Below are positions 7,012 to 36,430 of a stretch of 55,337 bases of DNA, in pieces; positions within the stretch are counted from its first letter, which is position 1; every line of letters begins with the position of its first letter. The DNA is taken from positions 1-55,337 of the forward strand of contig JAICJD010000004.1 in assembly GCA_025928645.1 (NCBI GenBank). Direction: 5' to 3'. The notes under the pieces were generated by a model. That model was not told the DNA's origin and ran no database searches. It saw nothing but the letters and a program-made list of their open reading frames with translations. The translations under genes were made by a program, and so were the position numbers. This DNA comes from Gemmatimonadales bacterium (GTDB taxonomy: Bacteria; Gemmatimonadota; Gemmatimonadetes; Gemmatimonadales; GWC2-71-9).

Positions 7012-7385
7012 CCGCTGGAACCTGTAAACGCGGGGGCGGGGGGTGCCGGCCGATGGGGCGGGAATATAGGCGGGGCGTCGGTCGGGCCAAGGTTTCCTGG
7101 GGTCGTGCCATTGCCCGCAGCAAGCCGGGCGGGGTGCCGCTCAAGCATTGGCTAGTGTCGCAAGACATTACGCTAACTTGTTACAATCGCCGAATGACAG
7201 AAGTTGTATCGTGTTACACCTGAGGAAGTTGCAGCTTAGAGCTGCGAAAAGACATGAGCGCTGTGTAGAACTTTTTCGCATTGAGTTGCCCCTTCAACTG
7301 CCGTAAATATGCAGGAGCCCAAGGGTGGTGGCGGCGGTTTGGGAACGGTTGGGTGCCCGCAGGGAGCAGACGAAAGGCCCCCGCA
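7012..7385. promoter_or_regulatory. Divergent intergenic regulatory region with structured leader
   Basis: This 374-bp non-coding gap separates the GT4 gene (leftward) from the Ig-domain lipoprotein gene (rightward). It is clearly AT-richer than its surroundings between about 7140 and 7310. Two dyads follow each other: GCAGC-TTAGA-GCTGC at 7231-7245, and GCGAAAA (7244-7250) that can pair with TTTTCGC (7273-7279). A TACAAT box at 7182-7187 could be a -10 element. I compared the leader with the c-di-GMP-I (GEMM) consensus and found no match. It is probably the promoter and untranslated leader of the lipoprotein gene. Confidence 0.45.
7063..7068 (-). promoter_or_regulatory. Putative -10 box (TATATT) for the GT4 gene
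   Basis: On the minus strand CCTATATTCCCGCC sits about 50 bases upstream of the GT4 ATG. It matches the TAnnTT pattern that recurs upstream of many genes in this window. No convincing -35 is seen. This is pattern-based inference. Confidence 0.35.
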
Positions 7386-9191
7386 ATGACGTACACGTTC
7401 AAGCTTGCGCGCAGACTCGCCGTCTCGCGAGACTTCGGCGTGCTCACCGCACTGGTTCTCCTCGCAGCGTGCTCCGGAGATTCCACCGCTCCCGACGTCG
7501 AGTCGGCCGGGTTCGCTGACCACGTCCTTCCCGGCTTCGAAGTCAGCCCTCGAGCCGTCACCATCGAAACCAACCAGACCATCGTCTTCCGCGGACGGGA
7601 CCGCAGTGTCAGGGGCGTCGTTCCCCTGGTCACGGCCTGGAAGACCAGCGGCGGCACCATTACCGCCGATGGCACCTTTTCCTCCGATGTCCCCGGCACG
7701 TATACCGTGGTCGGCCGGAGCGGAGGCAAGCACACCGACTCCTCGCTGGTGCAGGTGGTGCCGAAGAACGAGAACGTCGTGAGCCTCTCGGTCAGCCCCG
7801 ACTCCGTGTCCCTGCAGCCCGGCGGTGAGCGGACTTTTACGGTGAAGGCGCGCCTCGCGAGCGGCAGGACCACCTCGAAGGTCGGCGCCGTGTGGAGCGC
7901 CACCGGCGGCGACATCGACGCCGGCGGGACCTACACTGCCGGTGATACCACGGGCGACTTTCGCGTGATCGCCGTGAATACCTCCGGCACGGTGGCGGAT
8001 ACGGTCGCGGTGCACGTCGACGCGCAGGCTCCCGCGCTTCCGCCGCCGTCCAGTCCGCCTCCCGCCACGCTCGCGAGCGTGATCATCACGCCGGCCAGTG
8101 TCTCCCTTTCCTCCGGGGCGACACGCGACTTCGAGGCATATGGCCGCGATTCGAACGGCGACAGCGTCGCCGTCAGCGTGACCTTCACCGCAACCGGCGG
8201 CACGGTCACCGCGAACGGGCTGTACACCGCCGGCTCGACGGGCGGAGCCTACCGCGTCGTCGCGAGCTCGAACGGCCTGGCCGATACCGCGGCGGTCAGT
8301 GTCCTGGTCTCCTCGCCCGGCGTGACCTCCGGCATGGGCATTCCGTTCGGCCCGGCCCAGCTGTTGAACGAGAGCACAGGGGGGACGCCCTTCTCGCTCA
8401 CGATCGTCGGCACCACGGCGAGCACCATCGTCGGCACGCTGAGCCAGGCTCGGCAGCAGAAGCTCCGCCTCGTCCTCAACATGACGGGCGGCTCACACGA
8501 GCTGTACCTCACCGACGGCGTGTTCGACCGCGCCAAGTGGAACAGCAAGATGAACAGCTACAACACCCCGGAGATCCGGCAGGCCGTGGCGGAGGCGGTG
8601 GCCGACGGCACCATCGTCGGCGAGTCCGTCATGGACGAGCCGAACGTGTACGGGCTGGGCGACGGCAACACGTGGGGTCCGAGAGGCACCATGACCAAGG
8701 CGCGCGTCGATTCGCTCTGCGGGTACGTGAAGACGGTGTTCCCCACCATGCCGGTCGGCGTGGTCCATGCTCATCAGGCCTTCGAGCCGAGCAACTCCTA
8801 CCGGGTCTGCGAGTTCCTGGTGGACGCCTATTCGTACCGCTTCGGCGACATCACCAAGTGGCGCGACGACGCGCTGGCCATGGGCCGCCGCGACGGTCAC
8901 GCGATCCTTTTCAGCATGAACATCCTGAACGGCGGCATTCAGGCGGTGCGGGACGGCCTGTGGAACTGCCCGCTCACCACGACGGGCGGCCGGGGGACCT
9001 ACGATCCCAACTGCCGCATGACGGCGAATCAGATCCGCGAGTTCGGCCTGGCCCTGGGCCCGTCAGGCTGCGGCATGCTCATGTGGCGGTACAACTCGGA
9101 CTTCATCCTCGACCCGAATAATCAGCTCGCGTTCAAGGATATTGCCACACACCTCGCAACGCTCCCGTCCAAGGCCTGTCGGAGGAGTTAG
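7386..9191 (+). CDS. Ig-like-domain lipoprotein with putative TIM-barrel (glycosidase-like) C-terminal domain
   Basis: This is a probable outer-membrane lipoprotein of 601 residues; the track ORF begins 35 codons too early. The preferred ATG at 7386 gives MTYTFKLARRLA, then a hydrophobic stretch ending in the lipobox LAAC. Next come about three Big_2-like bacterial Ig repeats, each with the SVSPDSVSL...GG-x-I-x-A-x-G-TYTAG pattern (residues ~45-310) and a Pro-rich linker. The final ~270 residues start at GIPFGPAQ and form a separate domain with alternating beta/alpha elements; the strand GESVMDEPNVYG is reminiscent of catalytic-acid strands in clan-A-like glycoside hydrolases. The same N-terminus and C-terminal domain recur at 35456-36430. 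Function is unknown; polymer binding or cleavage at the cell surface is my inference from its place in the EPS locus. Confidence 0.75.
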   Translation: MTYTFKLARRLAVSRDFGVLTALVLLAACSGDSTAPDVESAGFADHVLPGFEVSPRAVTIETNQTIVFRGRDRSVRGVVPLVTAWKTSGGTITADGTFSSDVPGTYTVVGRSGGKHTDSSLVQVVPKNENVVSLSVSPDSVSLQPGGERTFTVKARLASGRTTSKVGAVWSATGGDIDAGGTYTAGDTTGDFRVIAVNTSGTVADTVAVHVDAQAPALPPPSSPPPATLASVIITPASVSLSSGATRDFEAYGRDSNGDSVAVSVTFTATGGTVTANGLYTAGSTGGAYRVVASSNGLADTAAVSVLVSSPGVTSGMGIPFGPAQLLNESTGGTPFSLTIVGTTASTIVGTLSQARQQKLRLVLNMTGGSHELYLTDGVFDRAKWNSKMNSYNTPEIRQAVAEAVADGTIVGESVMDEPNVYGLGDGNTWGPRGTMTKARVDSLCGYVKTVFPTMPVGVVHAHQAFEPSNSYRVCEFLVDAYSYRFGDITKWRDDALAMGRRDGHAILFSMNILNGGIQAVRDGLWNCPLTTTGGRGTYDPNCRMTANQIREFGLALGPSGCGMLMWRYNSDFILDPNNQLAFKDIATHLATLPSKACRRS

Positions 9192-10240: not shown

Positions 10241-12640
10241 ATGCCGCCACTGACCCCATCCAACCGCCTGCTGCCGGGCAACGTCGAGCCGCCGATGCGC
10301 GCCATCGAAACGGGGGACGGTGGCGAGTCCGTGTCCTTCCGGCAGATCCTGACCGTGCTCCGCCGCCGCTACCAGCTCATCCTCGCGATGACACTGGGCG
10401 GCGCGTCGCTCGGCCTCTTTCTCGCCTCACGCGAGCCGCCCAGCTACCGGGCCGCCGCGCTGCTCAGGTTCGCCGGCGAGCGCGCCTCGCTGACCGGCGA
10501 CGGCGAGGAGTCGCCCAGCGTCAAGAACACCGCCGATCCGATCCTGTCCGTCATCGAGCTTCTGCGGAGCCGGACCGTCGCGGGCGTGGTGGTGGATTCC
10601 CTCGGCCTCCAGCTCCAGAGCTGGACCGAGGGGTTCACCACCGGCGATCTCGCCAATGTGCGGGTGGATCCGCGCGCGTCGGGCGATTCCATCAACCTGA
10701 CCTTCCGCACCAACGAGGTCGTGGCGCATCGGGCCGACCGCACGGTCACCGCGCCGTACGGCGCCCTGATGAACCTGGGCACCGTCCAGTTCGCCGTGCG
10801 GACTCCGCCCAAGCTCGAAGCCGCCACGCTGGGCATCGCCGGGCGCGAGCCCACGATCGACGCGTTGGTCGCTGGGTTGCAGGTGAGCCGGCGGGTCGAG
10901 ACGGACATGATCGACGTGGCCTACGCCGCGGGCGATCCCCGGACCGCGCAAGGCGTGGTGAACACGACGGTGCGGGCCTTCCAGGCCCTCAACATCCAGT
11001 GGGCCCGCGACCGCTCGCGCCGCCGCCGCGAGTTCCTGGCCGAGCAGCTCGAGAAGACCGATAGCATGCTGGCGCGGGCCCAGGGCCAGCTCAGCTCGTT
11101 CCTGAGCCGGCAGCAGCTCGCGAGCAGCCGGGACAAGCTGCAGGCCCAGCAGGCCACGGAAGGGCAGCTCGAGGCCCGCATGGCCGAGCTCGATGCCGAC
11201 CGGCAGACGTTCAAGTCGCTGGCCACGCAGCTCCGCTCGAACGATCCGGACGCGCGGACGCAGGCGATCCGCGCCCTCGCCACTGCCCCCGCGATGTCGG
11301 ACAACGCGGCCATCGGGCAGGACTATCGCTCGCTGCTTCAGTACCAGGACCGCCTGGACTCGATGACGACCGGGCCCTGGAAGGCGTCGCCCAACAACCC
11401 CGACGTGGTGCAGCTGAAGAACATGATCGCGTCCACCCAGGGGCGCCTGGCCGACGCGGTCACCAGCCAGCTCAAGACCTTCGATGCCCGGATGGACGCG
11501 CTGGGCAAGCTGCGCGCCCAGACCGGCGCGAGCATGCAGATCCTCCCGGCCATGGCCGAAGAGGAGATGCGGCTCAATCGCCAGGTCGAGGCCGCGGCCA
11601 ACCTCGGCGACGAGCTCCGGAAGGACTATCAGCAGGCCCGGATGGCCGAGGCCGTCGAGGCGGGCGACATCGATGTGGTCGACCTGGCCGACATTCCGTA
11701 CTCCCCGGTGCTCACCGCGTCGGCGCTCAAGCTGGCGCTGGGTCTCGCCGTCGGCCTCGTGCTCGGACTCGTGCTGGCCTACCTCCTCGAGGCGCTCAAC
11801 ACCTCGGTACGCCGCCCCGAGGATCTCGAAGCGGTGCTGCACGTGCCCGGGCTGGCGGTCATCCCGCGTATCAGCGGCGGCGGGGCTAACGGGCGAGGCC
11901 GGCTCCGCGGACTGCTCGGGTCCGGCAAGGGCGCCAAGACCTCGGTCGGCTCGCCCATGTCGGGGGGCCAGACGTTCTCGATCGGTATCGAGGCGTTCCG
12001 GAACCTGCGTACCAGCCTCATCTGGTCCGATGGCGGCGAGGCGCTCAAGACCCTCGTCGTGACCAGCGCGGCGCCGGGCGAGGGGAAGACGCTCACCGCC
12101 GCCAATCTCGCGGTGACGCTGGCCTACGACGGGCTGCGGGTCCTGCTGGTGGACTGCGACATCCGCCGCCCCCGGGTCCACGGCCTGTTCCACCTGCCGC
12201 GAGCGCCCGGCCTCATGGAGTTGCTCACGGCCTCGAGCCGGCCCACCGGCTCACGGCTCCCGGCCATCCGGGACACCTCGGTGGTCGGGCTGTCGGTGCT
12301 TCCCTGCGGCGCGCTGCCGTCCAACGCGGCCAATCTGCTGAGTGGCACCCGGATGCGGGTGCTGCTGGAGGAACTGCGCGAGCAGTTCGACATCATCGTC
12401 CTCGACACGCCACCCGTGCTCGCGACGGCCGACGCCGGCATCGTCGCCTCGCTGACCGACGGCGTCCTGCTCGTGGTGCGTGCCGGAACCACCGATCGCA
12501 ACGCCGCCCAGCGGGCCTGCCAGCAGCTGGCCAACGTCGGCGCGCGCGTGATCGGCACCGTCTTGAACGATCCGGCCGGACAGGTCGCCAAGGAAGGCGA
12601 TTACTACTATCCCTACGACTACGCCGCGGAGGAGCAGTGA
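10241..12640 (+). CDS. Wzc-like polysaccharide co-polymerase with BY-type tyrosine autokinase
   Basis: This inner-membrane protein controls chain length and export of Wzx/Wzy-type polysaccharides through cycles of tyrosine autophosphorylation. The 799 residues contain an N-terminal Wzz domain with a first membrane helix (LILAMTLGGASLGLFLA), a long periplasmic coiled-coil-rich region, and a second helix (LALGLAVGLVLGLVLAYLLEAL) near residue 490. The cytoplasmic kinase follows: Walker A APGEGKT, Walker A' VLLVDCDIRRPR and Walker B IIVLDTPPV. A C-terminal tyrosine cluster (DYYYPYDY) is the expected autophosphorylation tail. Both the export partner upstream and the flippase/polymerase genes downstream are present in this locus. 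Confidence 0.95.
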   Translation: MPPLTPSNRLLPGNVEPPMRAIETGDGGESVSFRQILTVLRRRYQLILAMTLGGASLGLFLASREPPSYRAAALLRFAGERASLTGDGEESPSVKNTADPILSVIELLRSRTVAGVVVDSLGLQLQSWTEGFTTGDLANVRVDPRASGDSINLTFRTNEVVAHRADRTVTAPYGALMNLGTVQFAVRTPPKLEAATLGIAGREPTIDALVAGLQVSRRVETDMIDVAYAAGDPRTAQGVVNTTVRAFQALNIQWARDRSRRRREFLAEQLEKTDSMLARAQGQLSSFLSRQQLASSRDKLQAQQATEGQLEARMAELDADRQTFKSLATQLRSNDPDARTQAIRALATAPAMSDNAAIGQDYRSLLQYQDRLDSMTTGPWKASPNNPDVVQLKNMIASTQGRLADAVTSQLKTFDARMDALGKLRAQTGASMQILPAMAEEEMRLNRQVEAAANLGDELRKDYQQARMAEAVEAGDIDVVDLADIPYSPVLTASALKLALGLAVGLVLGLVLAYLLEALNTSVRRPEDLEAVLHVPGLAVIPRISGGGANGRGRLRGLLGSGKGAKTSVGSPMSGGQTFSIGIEAFRNLRTSLIWSDGGEALKTLVVTSAAPGEGKTLTAANLAVTLAYDGLRVLLVDCDIRRPRVHGLFHLPRAPGLMELLTASSRPTGSRLPAIRDTSVVGLSVLPCGALPSNAANLLSGTRMRVLLEELREQFDIIVLDTPPVLATADAGIVASLTDGVLLVVRAGTTDRNAAQRACQQLANVGARVIGTVLNDPAGQVAKEGDYYYPYDYAAEEQ

Positions 12641-12804: not shown

Positions 12805-14642
<1,838 letters not shown>

Positions 14643-14649
<7 letters not shown>

Positions 14650-15404
14650 GCCCAACCCTTCGCTCCGCGGTGATCGCGCTTGCGCGGGAAGCCGGCCGGG
14701 CGACCATGACCTACTACGACGGCGCCGCCGACGCGGGTATCCGCGAGAAGGACGACCGGAGCCCGGTGACCCTGGCCGACGAGGTGGCCCACGGGATTCT
14801 GGTCGAGGGGTTGCAGCGGCTGGATCCGGCCACGCCGGTCGTCTCCGAAGAGGCGGCGGCCGCCGACTTCGAGGCGCGGCGCGGATGGCGGCGCTTCTGG
14901 CTGGTCGACCCGCTCGACGGCACCAAAGAGTTCATCAAGCGGCGGGCGGAGTTCACGGTCAACGTCGGCCTGATCGAGGACGGGGAGCCGGTGTTCGGGG
15001 TGGTGCTCGCGCCGGCGCTGGATCTGCTCTATTGGGCCGCCAAGGGGGAGGGCGCCTGGCGCGAAGCCAACGGCGGCCGGCCGGAGCGCATCTACTCCAG
15101 CGCGCCGGCCGCCGGGGTGCCGCTCACGGTGGTCGAGAGCCTGTCGCACCCGTCGCCCGAGCTCGAGGAGTATCTCAGGACGATCCCGGTGGCGCGGCGG
15201 GTCAAGGCGGGCAGCTCGCTCAAGTTCTGCTGGGTTGCGGAGGGGCGCGCCGATGTGTATCCGCGGCTCGGCCCCACCATGGAGTGGGACGTGGCTGCCG
15301 GCGACTGCGTGTTCCGCCAGTCCGGCCGCGAAGGGGAGCGTCCCTCGCCCCTGACCTACAACAAGCCCGACCTGCGGAACCCCAGCTTCGTCATCGGACT
15401 GTGA
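14643..15404 (+). CDS. cysQ: 3'(2'),5'-bisphosphate nucleotidase CysQ
   Basis: CysQ hydrolyses 3'-phosphoadenosine 5'-phosphate (PAP), the by-product of sulfotransferases and PAPS reductase, to AMP. The 253-residue protein has the inositol-monophosphatase-family metal sites: VSEEAA near residue 68, WLVDPLDGTKEFI near 84-96 and EWDVAAGDC near 210. The ATG at 14643 overlaps the end of cysN by 7 bases; the ORF track's 162-codon upstream extension is a shadow of cysN. Its position between cysN and cysC, in a locus with three sulfotransferases, suggests its main job here is to relieve PAP inhibition of sulfation. Confidence 0.93.
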
Positions 15405-15924
15405 CGGGAACGCGGGCAGCCGCCCCGGTGTTGTGGTTTACCGGGCTGTCGGGATCGGGCAAGAGCACCATCGCCGTCCGGGTGCGCGAGGCGCTGGCGG
15501 GGCGGGGAACCGAGGTCGAGTACATCGATGGGGACGCCCTCCGCGAGGTGTTCCCGACCACGGGCTTCACCCGGGAAGAGCGGGAGGAGCACCTGCGGCG
15601 GACGGGATACATGGCGAGCCGGCTCGCGGCGCACGGTGTGACCGTGGTGGCGTCGTTCGTCTCGCCGTACCGGGCGTCGCGCGAGTTCATCCGGCGGCTC
15701 TGCCCCGGGTTCGTGGAGATCTACGTGGCGACGCCGCTCGACGAGTGCGAGCGGCGGGACGTCAAGGGGCTCTATGCCCGCGCGCGGCGCGGGGAAATCC
15801 GTTACTTCACGGGGATCGACGACCCGTACGAGTCGCCCGAGCACCCCGAGCTGACACTCGATACCCGTGAGCTCAGCGTCGACCAGTGCGTCGACGCCGT
15901 GCTCGCGCGCGTGGGAGGCCGATC

Positions 15925-15928
<4 letters not shown>
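15401..15928 (+). CDS. cysC: Adenylyl-sulfate (APS) kinase CysC
   Basis: CysC phosphorylates APS to PAPS, the universal sulfuryl donor. The 175-residue protein has an intact P-loop (GLSGSGKST), the substrate motif [20 protein letters not shown], then [11 protein letters not shown] and the conserved [23 protein letters not shown]. The GTG start at 15401 overlaps the cysQ stop (GTGA), a shape repeated at its own end with cysD. It supplies the activity that the C-terminal half of CysN has evidently lost. Confidence 0.94.
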
Positions 15929-16824
<896 letters not shown>

Positions 16825-24639: not shown

Positions 24640-25512
24640 ATGCTGCCGAACTTCATCGTCATCGGCGCCGCCAAAGCGGGCACGACGTCCCTGCATTGGT
24701 ACCTCGCCGAGCACCCCGAGATCTTCATGACCAAGGTGAAGGACCCGGGGTACTTCGCCTACGGCGTGGACGGCGAGGGGCAGCTGCTCTGGGGCGAGCC
24801 CGAGCGCCACGTCTTTCCGGTTCGCACCCTGGCCGAGTACGAAGCCTTGTTCGCCGACGCCGGCGGGGCGAAGGCGGTCGGCGAGGCCTCAACCACTTAC
24901 CTCGAGTGCCCTGAGGCGCCCGGCCGCATGCGCGCGCTGCTGCCGGCGGTCCGGGTACTCTGCAGCATCCGCCACCCGGTGGACCGGGCCTACTCCGACT
25001 ATATCATGCATCTGCGGCGCCGGGGACTCCCCTTCGATCCCGCCCGCGAGCTCACGGCCTCGGCCGCCTGGGCGCGGCCGGAGTCGCGCTGGATGCGGAT
25101 CGGTCGGTACCACGAGCAGCTGATGCGCTACTATGAGGCGTTCCCGCGGGAGCAGATCCGGGTGCTGGTGTTCGACGATCTGCGGCGGCACCCGCAGGCA
25201 TTCACCCGCGACGTGTACCGGTTCCTTGGCGTCGACGACTCCTTCGTCCCCGATTTCAACACTCCGCACGCCGCCGGCGGCATCCCCGCGAGCCCGTTGC
25301 TGGAAAAGGTATTCCTGCGCGCGGCCGCGTCGTCGGTAAAGACGTGGATCCCGACCCGCACGGCCAACTGGTTCCGGCGCCTTCGCGGGCGTACCCTGCG
25401 GCAGCCGCCGAGGCTGCCGCCGGATCTGCGGCGCGAGCTGACGGTGCCCCTGCGGGACGAGATCCAGCGAACCTCCGAGCTCATCGGCCGAAGCCTCGAG
25501 CACTGGCTCTAG
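24640..25512 (+). CDS. Sulfotransferase 1 (PAPS-dependent)
   Basis: This 290-residue protein is predicted to transfer sulfate from PAPS to a hydroxyl or amino group, probably on the exopolysaccharide. The 5'-phosphosulfate loop is IVIGAAKAGTTSLHWYLAEHPEIFM at residues 5-30. The 3'-phosphate-binding segment is CSIRHPVDRAYSDYIMHLRRRG near residue 110. VLVFDDLRRHPQAFTRDVYRFLGVDDSF is the typical C-terminal strand-helix of the Sulfotransfer_1/3 families. The start is ATG at 24640, after GGGGGAT. It converges with sulfotransferase 2. Related enzymes modify heparan-like or other glycans, but the acceptor cannot be read from sequence. Confidence 0.9.
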   Translation: MLPNFIVIGAAKAGTTSLHWYLAEHPEIFMTKVKDPGYFAYGVDGEGQLLWGEPERHVFPVRTLAEYEALFADAGGAKAVGEASTTYLECPEAPGRMRALLPAVRVLCSIRHPVDRAYSDYIMHLRRRGLPFDPARELTASAAWARPESRWMRIGRYHEQLMRYYEAFPREQIRVLVFDDLRRHPQAFTRDVYRFLGVDDSFVPDFNTPHAAGGIPASPLLEKVFLRAAASSVKTWIPTRTANWFRRLRGRTLRQPPRLPPDLRRELTVPLRDEIQRTSELIGRSLEHWL

Positions 25513-25515
25513 GAC

Positions 25516-26421
25516 TCACACCCAGTGGCTCAGATCCCGTCCCAGGAGACGGGAAAGCAGCGTCACCTCGTCGCGAAACTCTTCGACCAGCTCCGCGCGA
25601 AACTCGGCCGACAGCGGGCTGCGCGCCTCCTTGACCGTGTTCCGGGTGACGAGGGCGCGCTTGACCGCCTCGACCGGGCCGGCGCCCACGGCGCGCTTCA
25701 GTCCTCGCACCGTATGTAGCAGGAGCGGCGGCGGCTTTCGAAGGAAGTCTCTGAGCCACGGTACCCGCGCCCGCTTGCTGTCGTTGATCCGCGGGAACTC
25801 GGTGCGTTCGTCGGGGGACAGGCCAAGAAATCGGATCACCTGGGCGTACACACGCTCGGGGGATGCGGCGAAGTCCTCGTACACGATCAGCTTGACCTGG
25901 TCGGCCGGGAAGGTGGCCAGCAGGCGCTCGACCTGGGTGCCGAACCTGCCGAACTCCCGATACTGCAGCAGGAAGCTCCCGCGCGAGCGCCGGGGGAGGT
26001 CCAAGCCCTGGGCGCGGCGTGTCTGGAGCCGCCATGCGGCCTGGAAATCGGCGACCGGCTCCTCGGAGACGTACAGGAGCTGAGCGTGCAGCGCGTGGAC
26101 CATGTCGACGGGGTTCCGGAACATGGCGATGATCCTCGCGTCCGGGTTGAACGCGCGGATGTTCGGGATGGCCGCGGTGGAGCGGAGGTAGTACACCGAC
26201 GCTTCGCCCGCGGCCACCTGGGCCGGGGTGCGCTCGGCGAACAGCGCCGCATAGGCTTCCGGCGTCTGGACGATCGGGTAAGGCTTGAGATCGGTGGCGA
26301 AGAAATGCGGCTCCTTGACCCGGGGCATGAAGATGTGCGGGTGGTCTCGCAGGTAGGCGTAAAGCGCGGTGGTGCCGCATTTTGGGGCGCCGACTATGAA
26401 GAAATTCGGGGTAGCTGCCAA
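25516..26421 (-). CDS. Sulfotransferase 2 (PAPS-dependent)
   Basis: This is the second predicted carbohydrate sulfotransferase. From the TTG at 26421 (AGAGGG five bases upstream) it has 301 residues; the 87 extra codons in the ORF track are Pro/Arg/Gly-rich and non-conserved in style. Motifs are FFIVGAPKCGTTALYAYLRDHPHIFMPRVKEPHFF (5'-phosphosulfate loop), IIAMFRNPVDMVHALHAQLLY (3'-phosphate loop) and KLIVYEDFAASPERVYAQVIRFLGL. It is divergent from sulfotransferase 3, and a 20-bp palindrome lies just upstream. Confidence 0.9.
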   Translation of the reverse strand: MAATPNFFIVGAPKCGTTALYAYLRDHPHIFMPRVKEPHFFATDLKPYPIVQTPEAYAALFAERTPAQVAAGEASVYYLRSTAAIPNIRAFNPDARIIAMFRNPVDMVHALHAQLLYVSEEPVADFQAAWRLQTRRAQGLDLPRRSRGSFLLQYREFGRFGTQVERLLATFPADQVKLIVYEDFAASPERVYAQVIRFLGLSPDERTEFPRINDSKRARVPWLRDFLRKPPPLLLHTVRGLKRAVGAGPVEAVKRALVTRNTVKEARSPLSAEFRAELVEEFRDEVTLLSRLLGRDLSHWV

Positions 26422-26447
26422 ACGCGCCCTCTGCCGTTCGAGACGTT

Positions 26448-26467
26448 CTGTGGCGCATGCGCCACAG
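26448..26467. promoter_or_regulatory. Perfect 20-bp palindrome between divergent sulfotransferase genes
   Basis: CTGTGGCGCATGCGCCACAG is fully self-complementary and starts 27 bases upstream of the presumed TTG of sulfotransferase 2. Its shape suits an operator for a dimeric regulator. No known regulator consensus is recognised; the spacing between CTGT and ACAG (12) is not that of a LexA box. Confidence 0.45.
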
Positions 26468-26524
26468 CCGTGTAGCGGGTCGGCCGGGCCGCCAAAGGGG
26501 TGCCCACAGCACCCGGAGCCGTGA

Positions 26525-26530
26525 TAGATT
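26525..26530 (+). promoter_or_regulatory. Putative -10 box (TAGATT) upstream of sulfotransferase 3
   Basis: GATAGATTGCCGC is nearly identical to the box upstream of sulfotransferase 1 (GGTAGATTGCGGC). It lies 160 bases before the ATG, in the divergent region shared with sulfotransferase 2. Pattern-based inference. Confidence 0.35.
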
Positions 26531-26690
26531 GCCGCGCGCAAGTGCCGATGTGATAGGGGTCTGGACGGCACAAATCGTGCTCGTCCGCCGGCGAGCCAGC
26601 GCGGTTTTGGCCCCGCCTTCGGGCCGCACCATGGCCCGCCGTTGACCGGTTGGTCGGGACGACGACGACCCCAGGAGCGCAAACAGCCCG

Positions 26691-27599
26691 ATGAAGATTA
26701 CCAAGCCGATTGTGATCGTGGGAACGGGACGCTGCGGGTCGACGGTCTTTCACCGCCTGCTCGCCTTGCACTCGCAGGTGATGTGGCTCTCGCCGCTGAG
26801 CGAACTCTACCCCGACAAGCCGGCCTACAATCGCTGGGCCGTCAGCGCCATGGGCAACCCGCTGCTCCGGCGAATGCTCGGCAACAAGATTCGCCCCAGC
26901 GAATCCTACAAGTTCTGGGACCGATACGCGTACGGCTTTTCCGAGCCCTGCCGCGACCTGGTGCGGACCGACGTGACCGCCCGGGTCAAGCAGCAGGTCC
27001 GCGCCGCGATCGCGCCCATGCTCACCTCTCGGCGCAACCGGCTGCTGGTCAAGATCACGGCGTGGCCGAGAATCGGCTTTCTCAACGAGATCTTCGAGGA
27101 CGCCCGGTTCGTCCACATCAAACGCGACGGCCGGGCGGTGGCCAGCTCGCTGCTTCACGTCCACTTCTGGCGCGGGTGGTACGGGCCGCAGGGCTGGCGC
27201 AGCGGCATGCTGTCGCCCGAAGATCAGGCCACCTGGGAGAGCTACGATCGCTCGTTCGTGGCCCTGGCCGGCATCGAATGGCAGATTCAGATGCGCGCCA
27301 TGGAAGCGGCCCGGCGCGCGGTGGACCCGGCGCGGTTCCTCGAGGTGAAGTACGAATCCTACTGCGAGCACCCCATGGAGACGTATCGCCAGGTGCTCGA
27401 CTTCGCCGAGCTGCCGGTGACGCCCGCCTTCGAGCGGCAGATCCGCGCCGCGTCCATCCGCGACATGAGCCAGCGCTGGCGCGACGATCTCACGCCCGCG
27501 CAGCAGGCGCTGCTGGACGACCTCCTGCACGACGACCTCATCCGCTACGGCTACGGCGGGTCCGAGGCGACCCGGCTCCAGGCAGCCGCGGGGCGCTAG
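26691..27599 (+). CDS. Sulfotransferase 3 (sulfotransferase family)
   Basis: This is the third sulfotransferase-family protein, 302 residues, more distant from the other two. The N-terminal PAPS loop is PIVIVGTGRCGSTVFHRLLALHSQVMWLSPLSELY. A later strand-loop, ARFVHIKRDGRAVASSLLHVHFWRGW, gives the 3'-phosphate site. FLEVKYESYCEHPMETYRQVLDFAEL is the usual C-terminal strand-helix pair. It is followed 52 bases later by the flippase gene and so joins the sulfation genes directly to the EPS assembly genes. Confidence 0.87.
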   Translation: MKITKPIVIVGTGRCGSTVFHRLLALHSQVMWLSPLSELYPDKPAYNRWAVSAMGNPLLRRMLGNKIRPSESYKFWDRYAYGFSEPCRDLVRTDVTARVKQQVRAAIAPMLTSRRNRLLVKITAWPRIGFLNEIFEDARFVHIKRDGRAVASSLLHVHFWRGWYGPQGWRSGMLSPEDQATWESYDRSFVALAGIEWQIQMRAMEAARRAVDPARFLEVKYESYCEHPMETYRQVLDFAELPVTPAFERQIRAASIRDMSQRWRDDLTPAQQALLDDLLHDDLIRYGYGGSEATRLQAAAGR

Positions 27600-27651: not shown

Positions 27652-29217
27652 ATGACGTCGCCCGCCGACGGCGCGGCCAAGGCACCTTCGGGGCTCACGA
27701 AGCGGGCCCTCGGCGGCATGCTGTGGACGTTCACCGGCACCGGCGTGCAGGGGCTGGTGCAGCTGCTCGTCCTCATGGCCCTCGGTCGCCTGCTCACGCC
27801 GACCGACTTCGGGCTCATGGGCGCGGCCGGCGTCATCGTCGCCCTCTCGCAGATCGTCTCCTCGGTCGGTGTCGGCCCCGCCATCATCCAGCGCCGCGAG
27901 CTGGAAACGCTGCACATCCGCGCCGCGTTCACCATCTCGGGTGTCCTGGGCTTCGTCCTCGGCGCGCTGGTGTGGTTCACGGCTCCGGCGCTGGCGGCCT
28001 TCTATCGCATCCCCGCGGTCGAGCCGGTGCTGCGCGGCATCGCCCTCCTGTTTCCGATCGACGGCCTCAACACCGTCGGCGAATCGCTGCTCGTCCGGCA
28101 GCTCCGGTTCCGCCTCTTCGTGGCCGTGGAGCTGTTGAGCTACGTCCTCGGCTACGCGTGCGTCGGGGTGGTGCTCGCCTGGCGGGGCTACGGGGTCTGG
28201 GCTCTGGTGGCGGCCAACGTAGCTCAGGTGACGGTGCGAACGGTGGGCATGTACGTCGCGACCATGCACCCGGTGCGCCCCAGCCTGAACTACCGGGCCA
28301 GCCGTGACCTCATCAGCTACGGGTTCGGCCATTCGCTGGCCCAGGTGGGCGCGCTGCTGTCCCAGCAGGGAGACAACCTGGTCGTCGGGCGCTGGCTGGG
28401 TGCGGCCGCGCTGGGCGTCTACGGGCGCGCGTACAACCTCATGGTAATGCCGGCGAGCGTCTTCGGGCGGATCGTCAACCGGGTTCTGTTCCCCGTGATG
28501 GCGCAGGTGCAGGACGAGCCCGAGCGCCTGTCGGGGGCCTACGAGCGGGTGCTGGCCGTCGTCGCGCTCATGTCGCTGCCGGTCAGCGCCTTTCTGTGGG
28601 TCGCGGCGCCCGAGTTCATTCCGGCGCTCCTCGGCCCCGGCTGGACCGGGGTCGTGCTTCCGTTCCGGCTGTTCACGGTGAGCCTCCTGTTCCGCATGAG
28701 CAGCAAGGTCAGCGATGCCTGCACCAAGGCGGCCGGCGCGGTGTATTCACGGGCGCTGGTACAGGGCGTCTTCGCCGCGCTGGTGCTGCTCGGGGCGCTC
28801 ATCGGACAGATCTGGGGGGTCGGCGGTGTCGCGGTCGCGGTGTCCATCGCGATGGGCTTCAACTGGCTCGCCATGGCCGAGCTGAGCCGGCGGGTCACGG
28901 GACTTGCCTGGTCGCGATTCGCGTCGGCCCACGTGCCCGGGCTGGTGTTTGCGCTGCTGGTCGGCCTTACCGCCGCCCTCGGCGCTCAGGGGGCGCGGGC
29001 GGCGCATGTCGGACCCCTCGCGGTGCTGGCCGCCGCCACGGTCGCCGCCGCGCTCGCGGCGACGATCGCGCTCCGCACCCGGCCGGAGCTGTTCCTCGGG
29101 ACCCACGGGGCGTGGACCCTGCGACGGGCCGAGGAGGCCGTGCGCGGGGCCTTTGCCCGGATGGTCCCGCAAACAGCGCGCGACCGCGAGACGCTGGCGA
29201 AGGTGAATTCCGAATGA
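27652..29217 (+). CDS. Polysaccharide flippase (Wzx-like, MOP superfamily)
   Basis: This lipopolysaccharide/EPS flippase moves undecaprenyl-linked repeat units across the inner membrane. It has 521 residues and about 12-14 hydrophobic helices. The N-terminal GLTKRALGGMLWTFTGTGVQGLVQLLVLMALGRLLTPTDFGLMG is the classic start of the family (polysaccharide biosynthesis protein, WcaM/WzxC-like). A charged C-terminal tail of about 40 residues follows the last helix. The stop overlaps the next glycosyltransferase (ATGA), so they are co-translated. Confidence 0.92.
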   Translation: MTSPADGAAKAPSGLTKRALGGMLWTFTGTGVQGLVQLLVLMALGRLLTPTDFGLMGAAGVIVALSQIVSSVGVGPAIIQRRELETLHIRAAFTISGVLGFVLGALVWFTAPALAAFYRIPAVEPVLRGIALLFPIDGLNTVGESLLVRQLRFRLFVAVELLSYVLGYACVGVVLAWRGYGVWALVAANVAQVTVRTVGMYVATMHPVRPSLNYRASRDLISYGFGHSLAQVGALLSQQGDNLVVGRWLGAAALGVYGRAYNLMVMPASVFGRIVNRVLFPVMAQVQDEPERLSGAYERVLAVVALMSLPVSAFLWVAAPEFIPALLGPGWTGVVLPFRLFTVSLLFRMSSKVSDACTKAAGAVYSRALVQGVFAALVLLGALIGQIWGVGGVAVAVSIAMGFNWLAMAELSRRVTGLAWSRFASAHVPGLVFALLVGLTAALGAQGARAAHVGPLAVLAAATVAAALAATIALRTRPELFLGTHGAWTLRRAEEAVRGAFARMVPQTARDRETLAKVNSE

Positions 29218-30365
29218 TGCCGGCCAGCGGCGCCGAGCTCCGGCGACCCGCCGCCAGGTCGAGCGGGCGCCCGATCGCGTTCTTCCTGCCTTCGGTGCGC
29301 GCCGGCGGCGCCCAGCGCGTCGTCGTGAACCTGGTGCAGGGAATGGCCGAGCGAGGGCTCCCCGTGGACGTCGCGCTCGCCATCGCCGAGGGCGCCTTTC
29401 TCAACGAGCTGCCACCGAACGTGAGGCTGGTGGACCTGCGGGCGGGGCGGCTGTTCCGCAGCCTTCGCCCGCTGACGGCCTACCTGCGGGAGACCCGGCC
29501 CCGGGTTCTGATCTCGTCCATCAGCCATGCCAACCTGATCGCCATCTGGGCGGCCCGGCTGGCCCGCCGGCACACGCCCGTCGTCGTCACCGAGCACACG
29601 ACGATGTCGCTCGCCAACGTGCCGGGCAGCCGTCTGGGGGAGCGATTCGGGCCGATGCTGGTGCGGGCGTTCTATCCCTGGGCAGCATCGGTGGTGACCG
29701 TGTCCCGGGGGGCGGCGGACGACCTCGCGCGCAGCACCGGGCTGTCGCGGGAGCGAATGGAAGTGGTGTACAATCCGGTGATCACGCCGCGCGTGCTGGA
29801 GCTGGCCCGGCGGGTGCCGGACCATCCCTGGTTCGCGGCGGGCGCGCCCCCCGTCATCCTCGGCGTGGGCCGGCTGAGCCAGGCGAAGGACTTCCCGAAC
29901 CTCATCCGGGCCTTCGCGGAGGTCCGGCGCCGGCGCGCCGCGCGCCTGCTCATCCTCGGCGAAGGCGAGGACCGTGCGGGGCTGGAGGCGCTGATCGCGG
30001 AGCTGGGGCTGGGCGCCGACGACGTCGCGCTGCCCGGGTTCCGGGATGACGCCGTCAGCTTCATGGCGCACGCCGCGCTGTTCGTGCTCTCGTCGGCGTG
30101 GGAAGGGCTGCCGACCGTGCTGATCGAGGCGCTGGCCGCCGGAACCCCCGTCGTTTCGACCGACTGCCCGAGCGGCCCTCGGGAAATCCTGCAGGAGGGA
30201 CGGCTGGGCGCCTTGGTGCCGGTGGGGAACTCGGCCGCGCTGGCGGACGCGATGCTTCACGCCCTGGATCACCCGCCGCCGGCGCTGCCGGCGGCGGCGC
30301 TCGATCCGTTCACCCAGGATGCCGCGGTCGACCACTACCTCCGCGTGATCGAGGCGACCCAGTGA
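29214..30365 (+). CDS. Glycosyltransferase family 4
   Basis: This is a 383-residue GT-B glycosyltransferase that builds the repeat unit on the cytoplasmic side. The N-terminal loop reads PSVRAGGAQRVVVNLVQGMAERG; the domain linker is MEVVYNPVI; the donor site is ILGVGRLSQAKDFPNLIRAFAEVR; and the C-terminal E-x7-E motif is in SAWEGLPTVLIEALAAGTPVVSTDCPSGPREIL. The closest-looking family is the WbnK/amylovoran-type GT4 with DCPSGPxEIL. The start ATG overlaps the flippase stop and the end overlaps the polymerase start (GTGA). Confidence 0.92.
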   Translation: MMPASGAELRRPAARSSGRPIAFFLPSVRAGGAQRVVVNLVQGMAERGLPVDVALAIAEGAFLNELPPNVRLVDLRAGRLFRSLRPLTAYLRETRPRVLISSISHANLIAIWAARLARRHTPVVVTEHTTMSLANVPGSRLGERFGPMLVRAFYPWAASVVTVSRGAADDLARSTGLSRERMEVVYNPVITPRVLELARRVPDHPWFAAGAPPVILGVGRLSQAKDFPNLIRAFAEVRRRRAARLLILGEGEDRAGLEALIAELGLGADDVALPGFRDDAVSFMAHAALFVLSSAWEGLPTVLIEALAAGTPVVSTDCPSGPREILQEGRLGALVPVGNSAALADAMLHALDHPPPALPAAALDPFTQDAAVDHYLRVIEATQ

Positions 30366-31627
30366 CTCGCCTGGCCTATGCCGCGCTCTGGTTCTACGTG
30401 TTCTCCGTCCCGTGGGGCGGCGTGATCTCGCTCGGGAGCGGCGTCAACCTGGTCAGCAAGCTGACGGGCGCGATCGCCGCGGTCCTGGCGGGGCTCTCCG
30501 CCATGATGCTCGGCCGCTTCCGCAAGTGGCATTTCTTCCACGTGGCGGCGCTCCTGTTCGTGCTGTGGGTGGGCAGCACCCAGATCATCATGCTGGGCGG
30601 CGCCCTCAAGCTGCCGAACAAGTTCTGGACCTACGTCCAGCTGCTGGTGGTGCTGTGGATCATGTGGGAGCTGGCGCCCACCCAGCGCAAGGTCACCGGC
30701 CTGCTCGTCGCGTATCTGCTGGGCACCTACGTCATCGCGTTCGATACCATCCGGCTGGGTCTCACCCACGCCGGGCTCATGCGCCGGTTCGCCGCGGGCG
30801 GCGCGGACCCCAATTTCATCGCGATGACCCTGGCGCTCTCGCTGCCGATCGCGTGGCATCTGGGGATGCACTCCCGACGCCCCCTGCGGCGTTGGATCTG
30901 CTACGGCTACATGCCCGTCGGCCTGCTCGCCGTCGGCTTCACGGGGTCACGCGGTGGTCTGGTGGCCTCGATGGTGGCGCTCTCGATCGTGCCGCTCAGC
31001 ATGACCCGGCTCACGCCCAAGAAGCTGGCGATGGCGGTCACGCTGCTCGGCCTGTCGGCGGTGCTGGCCATCGCCTTCGTGCCCGACACGATCGTCGAGC
31101 GCCTGGCCAGCACCGGTTCCTCGGTCGAGAACCTGAGCCTGGGGGGGCGGTTCGGGGTGTGGCTCGCGGGGCTCCGCGCCTTCGTGAGCCGGCCCGTCAT
31201 GGGATACGGCACCGGCTCCTTCCGCGCGGCGGTGAGCGTGTACGGCGTGGACCACGTCGCTCACAATTCCTACCTCTCCGTGCTGGTGGAGCAGGGCCTG
31301 GTCGGGTTCTTCCTCTACTGCTCCATGCTGCTGGCCGTGTTCGCCTCCCTGGGGCGGCTTCGGAACCCCGAGCGGCGGTTCGCCCTCGTCCTGTTCGCGA
31401 CGGTGATGATGGCCATGCTGCCGCTCACCTGGGAAGACAGCAAGCAGGCCTGGTTCATCTTCGCCGCGCTGATCGGGGTGGCGGCCGCCTCGCCGGCTCC
31501 GCGCGGCCGCGGCAGATCCGCGCCGGGCCAGGAGACGCCCGTCCCGCCGCGCGCCGCCCGACCGCCGGGCCGGGCGCAGCAGCCGCTCGTGTCTCGCGTG
31601 CGCCGGGGCCCTGAGGTGCTCGGCTGA
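30362..31627 (+). CDS. O-antigen ligase/polymerase (Wzy/WaaL-like) membrane protein
   Basis: This is a polytopic inner-membrane protein of 421 residues with about 10-12 helices, most likely the Wzy polymerase of the EPS. The Wzy_C family signature is FTGSRGG near residue 198 and, after a large periplasmic loop, RPVMGYGTGSFRAAVSVYGVDHVAHNSYLSVLVEQGLVGFFLY, with the conserved H-N-S-Y-L. The last ~45 residues form a Pro/Arg-rich cytoplasmic tail of unclear role. The GTG start at 30362 overlaps the upstream stop. Polymerase rather than ligase is inferred from context. Confidence 0.88.
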   Translation: MTRLAYAALWFYVFSVPWGGVISLGSGVNLVSKLTGAIAAVLAGLSAMMLGRFRKWHFFHVAALLFVLWVGSTQIIMLGGALKLPNKFWTYVQLLVVLWIMWELAPTQRKVTGLLVAYLLGTYVIAFDTIRLGLTHAGLMRRFAAGGADPNFIAMTLALSLPIAWHLGMHSRRPLRRWICYGYMPVGLLAVGFTGSRGGLVASMVALSIVPLSMTRLTPKKLAMAVTLLGLSAVLAIAFVPDTIVERLASTGSSVENLSLGGRFGVWLAGLRAFVSRPVMGYGTGSFRAAVSVYGVDHVAHNSYLSVLVEQGLVGFFLYCSMLLAVFASLGRLRNPERRFALVLFATVMMAMLPLTWEDSKQAWFIFAALIGVAAASPAPRGRGRSAPGQETPVPPRAARPPGRAQQPLVSRVRRGPEVLG

Positions 31628-32445
31628 TGCCTCGCGTCAGCGTCGTCACGACCGTCTACAACGGCGAGCCCTACTTCGACCGGGCCCTTCCGGGCATCCT
31701 GAGCCAGACGTTGGAGGATTTCGAGTACGTCATCGTGGACGACGGCTCGACCGACCGGACGCCCGAACTGCTGCGCGAGGCGGCCCGGCGGGATCCACGC
31801 ATCCGGGTGCTCTCGCCCGGCCGCATCGGCTTCTGCAACGCGGCCAACCTGGGCGTGGAGCAGGCGTGCGGCGAGATCATCGCCCGGCAGGACTTCGACG
31901 ATCGAAGCTACCCGGAGCGGCTGCAGCGGCAGGTCGCCTACCTCGACGCCCACCCGAAGGTGGGGCTGGTCGGCGGGCACTATGTGCTGGTGGACGAGAA
32001 CCGCGGTGAGCGGTACGTGCGCATGCCGCCGACCGAGCATGAGGAGATCGTGCTGGCCATGGCCAGGCTCATTCCCATGGCCAACACGATCTCCACGTTC
32101 CGCAAGCGGGTCTGGGCCGAGGTCGGCGGCATCCCGGTGGTCAACGACCTCGAGGATCTGCTGTTCTGGCTCAACGCGGTGAAGGCCGGCTGGCGCATCG
32201 CGAATCCGCCCGAGGTGATGGGCGAGCACTTCGTCCACGCCTCGAGCTTCTTCCACCGGACGTACAAGTACGCCGACCGCCAGCGCAACCTGGCGCGGGT
32301 CCAGGCGAAGGTCGTGCGCGAGCTTCGCCTCCCGTCCTGGATGTACCTCTACGCGGCGGGCCGCTACGGCTATGCCTACTGCCCCGCGCTCGTGAAGCGG
32401 GTGGTGCGGCGGACCCTGGGCGGCTCCCGGGAACGGGACGTGTGA
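31627..32445 (+). CDS. Glycosyltransferase family 2
   Basis: This is an inverting GT-A transferase of 272 residues. It has VSVVTTVYNGEPYFDRALPGILSQTLEDFEYVIVDDGSTDRT at the N-terminus and the metal-binding acidic motif in IIARQDFDDRSYPERL, a slightly altered DxD. NDLEDLLFWLNAVKAG gives the catalytic-base region. The C-terminal tail has no membrane helix. The ATG overlaps the previous stop (TGATG) and the stop overlaps the next gene (GTGTGA). Confidence 0.92.
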   Translation: MPRVSVVTTVYNGEPYFDRALPGILSQTLEDFEYVIVDDGSTDRTPELLREAARRDPRIRVLSPGRIGFCNAANLGVEQACGEIIARQDFDDRSYPERLQRQVAYLDAHPKVGLVGGHYVLVDENRGERYVRMPPTEHEEIVLAMARLIPMANTISTFRKRVWAEVGGIPVVNDLEDLLFWLNAVKAGWRIANPPEVMGEHFVHASSFFHRTYKYADRQRNLARVQAKVVRELRLPSWMYLYAAGRYGYAYCPALVKRVVRRTLGGSRERDV

Positions 32446-33584
32446 GAATCCTCTTCCTCTCCACCAGCATGGGCATGGGCGGCGCGGACCAGCAGCTGCT
32501 GTCCGCCGCCCGCGAGCTGCGCGGGCGAGGGCACGACATCATGATCGTGTCGCTCACGCCTCTGGGGGCGATGGGGATCGAGGCGCGGACGGAGGGCTTC
32601 CGTGCGGAGTCGCTGGGCATGGCGCGAGGGATCCCGGATCCGCGGGGGCTCGTACGGCTGGTCCGCCTGGTGCGCGCGTGGTGTCCCGACGTGATCCACA
32701 GCCACATGGTCCACGCCAACCTGCTGGCGCGCGCGCTGCGCGTGCTGGCGCCGGTCCCGGCGCTGGTCTCCACCATTCACAACATCACCGAAGGTGGCGC
32801 GATGCTGATGGCCGGCTACCGGGTGAGCAACGCCCTGGTAGACCACATGACCATCATCAGCCAAGCCGCGGCCGACCGGTTCATCAGAGACCGCATCGTG
32901 CCGAGCCGGCTGCTCACCGTGATCCCGAACGGCGTCGATGCGCGGCAGTTCGCCCCGGTCGCGCCCGAGAAGCGCGAGATGCTGCGCCGTTCCCTCGAGC
33001 TCGGGAACGGGTTCGTGTGGCTCGCCGTCGGGCGGTTCGAGCTGGCCAAGGACTACCCGAACCTGCTGCGGGCGTTCGCCGCGGTGCGCGAGCGGCACCC
33101 GGGCACGCTCCTCCTGCTGGCCGGCGAAGGCGGGCTCCAGGGCGAGGCGGAGGCGCTGGCCCATACCCTCGGGCTCGTCCCGGCGGTGCGGTTCCTCGGC
33201 GTGCGTCGTGATGTGCCGGACGTCATGCGTGCGGCGGACGGGTACGTCATGTCCTCGGCCTGGGAAGGCATGCCGATGGTGCTGCTCGAGGCGGCCGCCG
33301 CGGGCCTGCCGATCGTGACCACGAGCGTCGGCGGCACGGGCGAGGTCGTGGCTGACGGCTCGTCGGGCTTTCTGGCGCCCGCCAGGGACCCAACGGCGCT
33401 GGCGGCGGCGATGGTTCGCCTGATGGCCCTGCCGGAGGCGGAACGGCGCGCGATGGGAGAGCGGGGCCGCGAGCGTGTGATGAGCCGCTACAGCCTCGTC
33501 CGCGTGGCGGAACGGTGGGAGGCGCTCTATCGCGAAGTGCTGGAGCGGAAGGGGGCGGCGCTGGCCCTGCGGGCCTCAGGCTGA
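32442..33584 (+). CDS. Glycosyltransferase family 4
   Basis: This is a GT-B fold transferase of 380 residues. It shows MRILFLSTSMGMGGADQQLLSAARELRGRGHD at the N-terminus, the linker VIPNGVDARQFAP, and SSAWEGMPMVLLEAAAAGLPIVTTSVGGTGEVV with the E-x7-E motif. The GTG start at 32442 overlaps the GT2 stop. The last 58 bases overlap the convergent GT-C gene on the other strand. This is the final gene of the forward EPS assembly block. Confidence 0.92.
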   Translation: MRILFLSTSMGMGGADQQLLSAARELRGRGHDIMIVSLTPLGAMGIEARTEGFRAESLGMARGIPDPRGLVRLVRLVRAWCPDVIHSHMVHANLLARALRVLAPVPALVSTIHNITEGGAMLMAGYRVSNALVDHMTIISQAAADRFIRDRIVPSRLLTVIPNGVDARQFAPVAPEKREMLRRSLELGNGFVWLAVGRFELAKDYPNLLRAFAAVRERHPGTLLLLAGEGGLQGEAEALAHTLGLVPAVRFLGVRRDVPDVMRAADGYVMSSAWEGMPMVLLEAAAAGLPIVTTSVGGTGEVVADGSSGFLAPARDPTALAAAMVRLMALPEAERRAMGERGRERVMSRYSLVRVAERWEALYREVLERKGAALALRASG

Positions 33585-35455: not shown

Positions 35456-36430
35456 ATGTCCTACAGCTTCAAGTTGTCACGCCGCATCGCGCGACTTCGA
35501 CTTCCTGTCCTCGTGGCGCTCGCCTCGTCCTTCGCGGCCTGCGACGGCAGCAATAGCCTGAGCCCCGACGCGCTCGACTCGCAGACTCCGGCGGCGCCCA
35601 CCACGCTGGCCGGCGGCGATGAGTCGGTGGGTACGCTGGAGGTCTCGACCACGGCGGCCGCCACCTATGGCGGCATTCCGTTCGGCACCTTTGCCCAGCC
35701 CACCACGATGTTCGGCTCGACGTACACCGGCGGCAAGGTGACCGTCGGCCCGGCGACCATCAGGTCGACGCTCGCGGCCATCAAGTCGCGCGGCGGCCGG
35801 GTGGTGCTGATGATGGCGGGCTCGGAGAAGTACTATAAGGACGCCGCCGGCCATTTCAGCTTCGACAAGTGGAAGCAGCGCATCGACCGCTTCAGGGGCG
35901 TCAACTTCGATTCGTACATCAAGGATGGTACGATCATCGGCCACTACATCATCGACGAGCCGCAGGATCCCGCCAACTGGAACGGGCGGCCCATCACGGC
36001 GTCGACGGTGGACCAGATGGGGCAGTACAGCAAGGCGCGCTGGCCCGCCATGGCCACGATTGTCCGGACGGTGCCGAAGTTCTTCCCATCGCATCCGAGG
36101 TACATCGACGCGGCGTGGGCGCAGTACCTCTCCCGGATGGGCAGCGCGAGCGATTACATCAGGAAGAACGTGGCCGACGCGCAGAACCGTCGGATCCAAC
36201 TGGTGGTCGGACTTAACGTCATCGGCGGTGGCCAGCCAAACCTCACCCCGATGAACGCCACCGAGATCAAGTCGTTCGGCACCGCGCTCCTGAGTAGCTC
36301 CTACCCCTGCGCGTTCATCAGCTGGCAGTACCGCAGCTCGTATTTCTCGTCCAGCAGCATCAGGTCGGCGATGAGCGCCATCTCCAGCAAGGCCAAGAGC
36401 CGCGCGTCGAAGTCCTGCCACGCCGGCTGA
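35456..36430 (+). CDS. Lipoprotein paralogous to the 7386-9191 C-terminal domain (putative glycosidase-like)
   Basis: This 324-residue predicted lipoprotein begins MSYSFKLSRRIARLRLPVLVALASSFAACDG. The first twelve residues match the N-terminus of the big lipoprotein at 7386 (MTYTFKLARRLA), and the lipobox is FAAC. After a Ser/Thr/Pro linker of about 55 residues comes the shared domain, GGIPFGTFAQPT to the C-terminus. Corresponding segments align throughout: RVVLMMAGS with RLVLNMTGG, DGTIIGHYIIDEPQDPANW with DGTIVGESVMDEPNVYGLG, and FISWQYRSSYF with MLMWRYNSDFI. Ig repeats are absent here. It closes the EPS island. Enzyme activity on the polymer is a hypothesis based on the DEP strand and location. 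Confidence 0.78.
   Translation: MSYSFKLSRRIARLRLPVLVALASSFAACDGSNSLSPDALDSQTPAAPTTLAGGDESVGTLEVSTTAAATYGGIPFGTFAQPTTMFGSTYTGGKVTVGPATIRSTLAAIKSRGGRVVLMMAGSEKYYKDAAGHFSFDKWKQRIDRFRGVNFDSYIKDGTIIGHYIIDEPQDPANWNGRPITASTVDQMGQYSKARWPAMATIVRTVPKFFPSHPRYIDAAWAQYLSRMGSASDYIRKNVADAQNRRIQLVVGLNVIGGGQPNLTPMNATEIKSFGTALLSSSYPCAFISWQYRSSYFSSSSIRSAMSAISSKAKSRASKSCHAG

Follow-up and report, generated by a model that had tools for sequence, protein, structure and literature searches.

A lipoprotein family with a predicted TIM barrel associated with exopolysaccharide loci of Gemmatimonadota and Myxococcota

The lipoprotein P0001 is encoded on a contig of a Gemmatimonadales bacterium (the window, i.e., the whole stretch of 55,337 nucleotides analysed here) and ends in a domain which is very probably a TIM barrel linked to loci for exopolysaccharide (EPS) production. 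The barrel family appears to be undescribed as far as Pfam, NCBIfam, and the PDB reach, and we report here that it is also present in Myxococcota, where it is usually the last gene of an EPS operon. EPS loci commonly carry a glycosidase of debated role, and the family described here appears to be a separate one filling this job in the Wzx/Wzy loci of both phyla. Judging from gene content and structural models, the barrel is probably a carbohydrate-active enzyme acting on the polysaccharide of its locus. More tentatively, and with a likelihood which we place a little short of even, we propose that P0001 is a lipid-anchored glycosidase dedicated to the EPS of its own Wzx/Wzy-type locus and that it works by substrate assistance via a pair of acidic residues at the end of strand 4.

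Architecture and predicted fold of P0001

P0001 was originally predicted from the sequence to be a lipoprotein with Ig repeats, and indeed a lipobox and three Ig-like repeats are found (Table 1). The ATG start is supported by the orthologues, which begin with MTYT[FY]KL[AS]RRLA. Every pairwise alignment of the repeats scores above all 300 shuffles, and in Pfam the repeats match Big_2 weakly. The C-terminal domain had been described as not recognisable and as found again further downstream in the window. This description proved accurate, as the domain recurs in the paralogue P0002 (blastp 3e-14, 25% identity) and in ∼8 copies in its own genome, whereas searches of Pfam and NCBIfam gave no significant match to either P0001 or P0002. 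P0001 had no significant match among PDB sequences, and the profiles of the barrel family retrieved nothing significant from Pfam or the PDB; PDB sequence matches of the single sequence and of the profiles (thioredoxin and others) were rejected as chance matches. The paralogues have a common n-region, M[TS]Y[TS][FY]KL[AS]RR[LI]A (positions 7386–7430 and 35456–35500), despite the ∼25% identity of their barrels.

In the AlphaFold models of P0001 (pTM 0.81, pLDDT 79) and P0002 (pTM 0.77, pLDDT 75) strands and helices alternate as they do in a TIM barrel, and the first ∼30 residues are poorly predicted in both models. In Foldseek searches clan GH-A enzymes and GH5-like phage proteins lead the matches of P0001. 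The leading matches of P0002 are a mixture of branching enzymes, GH18, GH26, GH5, BT_0435, and the hydrolase domain of PelA (5tsy), and ketose 3-epimerases are returned as well. Among the best structural matches of both models, glycosidases are the most numerous group. The TM-scores of these matches are low (∼0.4–0.55), and therefore they support the fold class but not the family. The expectation of a barrel-like domain containing a DEP motif is in agreement with these models, as both of them place DEP just past the point where a barrel strand ends on its C-terminal side.

Table 1. Positions of P0001, P0002 and the surrounding features in the window
Feature	Position	Strand	Basis
Conserved leader element AGCCCAAGGGTGG..GGGAACGGTTGGGT (also given as AGCCCAAGGGYGG..GGGAACGGTTGGG)	7316..7354	+	Orthologue comparison
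P0001, lipoprotein of 601 aa	7386..9191	+	ORF translation, orthologues
P0001 signal peptide, lipobox LLAAC, Cys29	7386..7472	+	Read from translation; n-region conserved
P0001 three Ig-like (Big_2-like) repeats, residues ∼51–127, 129–212, 229–310	7536..8315	+	Repeat comparison
P0001 predicted TIM-barrel domain, residues 318–601 (∼284 residues)	8337..9188	+	AlphaFold, Foldseek, alignment
Asp417-Glu418 dyad, end of strand 4	8634..8639	+	Conservation; strand ends from AlphaFold model
Tyr482, end of strand 6	8829..8831	+	Conservation
Asn512, end of strand 7, replaces clan GH-A nucleophile	8919..8921	+	Conservation
Trp567, end of strand 8	9084..9086	+	Conservation
Wza-type polysaccharide export protein, next gene downstream of P0001	9565..10233	+	Pfam Poly_export
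Wzc-type chain-length protein with kinase-like domain	10241..12640	+	Pfam
Sulfate activation: CysN with APS-kinase-like end, CysQ type, CysC, CysD	12805..16824	+	Pfam
Three sulfotransferases, middle one on − strand	24640..27599	.	Pfam
Wzx flippase, GT4, Wzy/ligase type, GT2, GT4	27652..33584	+	Pfam
P0002, paralogue, short form without Ig repeats	35456..36430	+	blastp against P0001, AlphaFold
P0002 dyad Asp167-Glu168	35954–35959	+	Alignment, AlphaFold
Initiating sugar transferase (WcaJ type)	37429..38256	−	Pfam Bac_transf

The EPS locus and the distribution of the family

P0001 had been placed directly upstream of the EPS export gene, and the Pfam match of the following gene bears this out. Behind the sulfate-activation genes lie a porin, a solute-binding protein, and two ORFs of permease type, which read as a sulfate-type importer. 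The locus ends with P0002, a methyltransferase, and the WcaJ-type initiating transferase. Given the combination of sulfate-activation genes and sulfotransferases with Wzx, Wzy, and glycosyltransferase genes, the locus most likely makes a sulfated exopolysaccharide; the gene neighbourhood does not prove that this polymer contains N-acetylhexosamine. The position next to Wza and the lipid anchor suggest that P0001 most likely handles the polymer at the export step. The EPS locus contains a full set of PAPS-making genes, in which the CysN with its APS-kinase-like end stands beside a separate CysC.

In related Gemmatimonadales contigs the gene order GNAT-GT4-P0001-Wza-Wzc-CysN-CysQ-CysC-CysD-sulfotransferase is largely kept within the reach of each contig, and Wza directly follows the barrel gene in 6/6 contigs that are long enough to show it. 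P0001 is a fast-evolving protein, with ∼46–53% identity between relatives compared to ∼84% for CysN. A third copy of the own genome (contig C93) is also located among polysaccharide genes; others are not, and some barrel copies within the genus sit outside EPS loci.

When 298 genomes of the phylum were sampled with the family profile, seven contained the barrel, all of them from the genus of the window, and the other 118 genera yielded no member. The positive genomes have at least 5–8 copies each, with the best eight candidates per genome scored. A P0001-type barrel is also encoded by three Myxococcales MAGs, which lie outside the phylum. Two of these barrels are complete and devoid of Ig repeats. 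The P0001-type barrels L046 and L049 of Myxococcales MAGs, which lack Ig repeats, branch inside the Gemmatimonadota group, which suggests lateral transfer; read by eye, their neighbours are a sugar aminotransferase and a set of genes that resembles one for nonulosonic acid. For Myxococcota, the phylum of one such MAG, matches were obtained in 18 of 284 sampled genomes, these MAGs included. A true GH5 is among the weakest matches, whereas almost all of the remaining ones belong to a separate branch with DDI replacing DEP. The profiles of the P0001-type and the DDI branch match each other with 100% probability (E 8e-55), and therefore both belong to one family; in the tree each group forms one fully supported branch. 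No Pfam or NCBIfam match was obtained for the Myxococcota barrel genes tested, and no relatives of the family were found in viral contigs and plasmids.

The common gene order in Myxococcota is Wzc-Wzy-Wzx-GT4-Wza-GalE-barrel, the neighbours being confirmed by Pfam. Wza or GalE is adjacent in 10 of 16 barrel loci compared to 1 of 80 control glycosidase loci (GH5, GH18, GH84, and GH114 loci of Myxococcota, with flanks of 1.5 kb used for barrels and controls alike). The Fisher p of 7e-9 overstates independence, as the barrel loci share ancestry, but the contrast is still large. Because the association recurs in the operons of a second phylum, the EPS link of P0001 is stronger than originally claimed.

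In the genus of the window further forms of the barrel are found. The proteins L004, L021, L062, and L073 are two-barrel lipoproteins. In a divergent subgroup (L039, L040, and L079) DEP is replaced by DDY and the loop of strand 7 is changed as well; the copies of this subgroup in the own genome are not near EPS genes.

Conserved residues and alternative readings of the barrel

Asp417, Glu/Asp418, Tyr482, Asn512, and Trp567 are among the residues conserved in an alignment of 37 members. According to the DSSP strand ends of the models these residues are located at or just past the C-terminal ends of strands 4, 6, 7, and 8 in both copies, and the C-terminal strand ends are the usual catalytic end of such a barrel. 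The alignment thus has conserved carboxylates at the place where the original prediction would have them, namely the dyad of strand 4. Of 70 distinct barrels, 43 have DE as the pair, 23 have DD, and the remaining four deviate from both, so that Asp417 is kept in 69/70 and Glu/Asp418 in 66/70. All four altered dyads (DQ, QN, DQ, and DL) are found in the second barrels of the two-barrel proteins, and the first barrel of each has DE. Loss of the dyad in second barrels only is what one would expect if the pair were catalytic and had become relaxed once the barrel was duplicated.

The DEP strand had been likened to the acid-residue strands of clan-A glycoside hydrolases, and this likeness holds in part. 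The fold agrees, and over strands 3–4 the family profile matches a true GH5 with DEP falling on the NEP of strand 4; hhalign to GH5 gives 67–75%. On the other hand, the strand-7 nucleophile Glu of clan GH-A (GH5, GH113, GH35, and GH2) is Asn in 37/37 aligned sequences, and the acid/base position at the end of strand 4 is Glu in 43/70 barrels and Asp in 23, with Asp in the Myxococcota branch. One could still envisage that the barrel is a divergent clan GH-A enzyme or a GH135/PelA-like retaining alpha-hexosaminidase, that is an EPS hydrolase with a covalent nucleophile, in which Glu418 (or Asp417) is paired with a second catalytic acid, a carboxylate that has escaped recognition. The GH5 alignment, the clan GH-A enzymes among the best structural matches of P0001, and the match of P0002 to PelA speak for this reading, as does Sph3, for which an adjacent Asp-166/Glu-167 is also listed (PMC10485009). 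Yet besides the Asn of strand 7, no second conserved carboxylate is found at the C-terminal face in the 37 aligned members and the model; Asp/Glu476 is fully conserved but located at the start of strand 6, at the opposite end of the barrel. Moreover, GH5 and GH84 reach a similar hhalign score of 77% and therefore the GH5 score of the barrel family is ordinary barrel cross-talk, and the Myxococcota branch alone has no GH5 match in hhalign. We consider a covalent-nucleophile enzyme rather unlikely. Among the parent families considered, GH18, GH114, and GH84 were rejected with hhalign scores below 10% each (GH84 9%), and DUF4434 (PF14488) offered too few sequences for a comparison.

The Asn at the nucleophile position of every aligned member could also be taken to mean that the barrel has no catalytic function at all and is a degenerate glycosidase barrel acting as a lectin, by which the polysaccharide is held or guided at the cell surface. 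An Ig-like stalk and a lipid anchor would suit such a surface receptor, and the second barrels devoid of the dyad show that non-catalytic forms exist. But barrels of two phyla retain the D-(E/D) pair, and it is lost in the duplicated second barrels alone, which points to chemistry, and we regard a pure binding function as unlikely. That the barrel is instead another enzyme, for example an epimerase, lyase, or transglycosylase which modifies the polysaccharide without hydrolysis, appears very improbable to us: barrel folds host many chemistries and Foldseek also returns ketose 3-epimerases and glucan branching enzymes, but the 37-member alignment contains no conserved His or metal-ligand set at the barrel mouth, and glycosidases prevail among the best matches of both models.

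Proposed substrate-assisted cleavage by the dyad and possible biological role

Taken together, the ring of Asp-Glu/Asp, Tyr, and Trp fits the substrate-assisted hexosaminidases of the GH123 and GH84 type better than clan GH-A, and this is the reading favoured here. The GH123/DUF4091 beta-N-acetylgalactosaminidases and the GH84 O-GlcNAcases are likewise TIM barrels in which Asp-Glu or Asp-Asp stand side by side, GH84 using a DD pair (PMC4263850), and in both the pair serves substrate-assisted cleavage of N-acetylhexosaminides (PMC11087588; PMC4263850). In GH123 changes of the Asp abolish activity and a Glu-to-Asp change merely reduces it, and Tyr and Trp are placed at the substrate (PMC11087588). 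The stricter conservation of the first Asp and the Tyr and Trp at the barrel mouth are shared by our family, and for these reasons substrate assistance is favoured. By contrast, the family has no DUF4091 part, consists of lipoproteins in EPS loci, and has no sequence match to GH123, GH20, or GH84; no member scanned matched PF00150 (GH5) or the GH123/GH84 Pfam profiles, and a true GH5 scores 1e-50 in the same PF00150 test. Thus, we infer by analogy that the family works like GH123 and GH84, and the profiles do not support membership in either. That the barrel indeed uses substrate assistance is possible, but on this analogy somewhat less than an even prospect.

For the catalysis, the membrane side, and the biological role of P0001 we infer the following. 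The Ig-like repeats would form a stalk which holds the barrel off the membrane, and the barrel would bind and cut the sulfated EPS while it is exported via Wza or close to this step. In a substrate containing N-acetylhexosamine, Asp417 would orient and stabilise the 2-acetamido group, which would itself act as the nucleophile, with Glu418 serving as acid/base. The −1 subsite would owe its shape to Tyr482 and Trp567, and Asn512 would stand where the nucleophile of clan GH-A would be. Cutting might set the chain length, release the polymer, or clear stalled chains, similar to what has been proposed for PslG in Psl and PelA in Pel production.

Glycosidases encoded in EPS loci, such as PslG, PelA, AlgL, and Sph3, are a known theme (PMC9075953, PMC10485009), and the barrel family, like PslG and PelA, is encoded within a polysaccharide synthesis and export locus. 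With PslG (GH39), PelA, Sph3 (GH135), and PgaB it shares a barrel of glycosidase type that is probably exported to the envelope, and the PelA domain is a structural neighbour of P0002. In contrast to these proteins, to which no sequence match was found, the family has another putative catalytic set and sits next to wza in the Wzx/Wzy loci of Gemmatimonadota and Myxococcota. It is conceivable, though we hold this broad reading to be clearly below even, that the barrels constitute a new glycoside hydrolase family with a substrate-assisting Asp-(Glu/Asp) pair in a barrel resembling clan GH-A. The family would then provide the Wzx/Wzy EPS operons of two phyla with a built-in enzyme for polysaccharide processing, duplicated and diversified in one genus of Gemmatimonadota, including two-barrel forms whose second barrel has turned into a binding module. 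A single point mutation of the dyad in a conserved operon gene makes a direct test possible. The tandem proteins with an intact and a lost barrel offer a natural comparison of enzyme and binder, and the family may yield enzymes active on sulfated polysaccharides.

Upstream of P0001 the conserved leader element of Table 1 lies 32–70 nt before the ATG and is kept in the orthologues and in one paralogue (L032). Its arms could pair, yet they are invariant, so that a covarying RNA hairpin has no covariation support, and a known riboswitch was considered for the region, but no Rfam family matches. Further upstream, ∼200 nt before the ATG, the palindrome TTGTTACAAT (positions 7178–7187) occurs as a single copy in the window and at the same position in most orthologues; it may be a regulator site.
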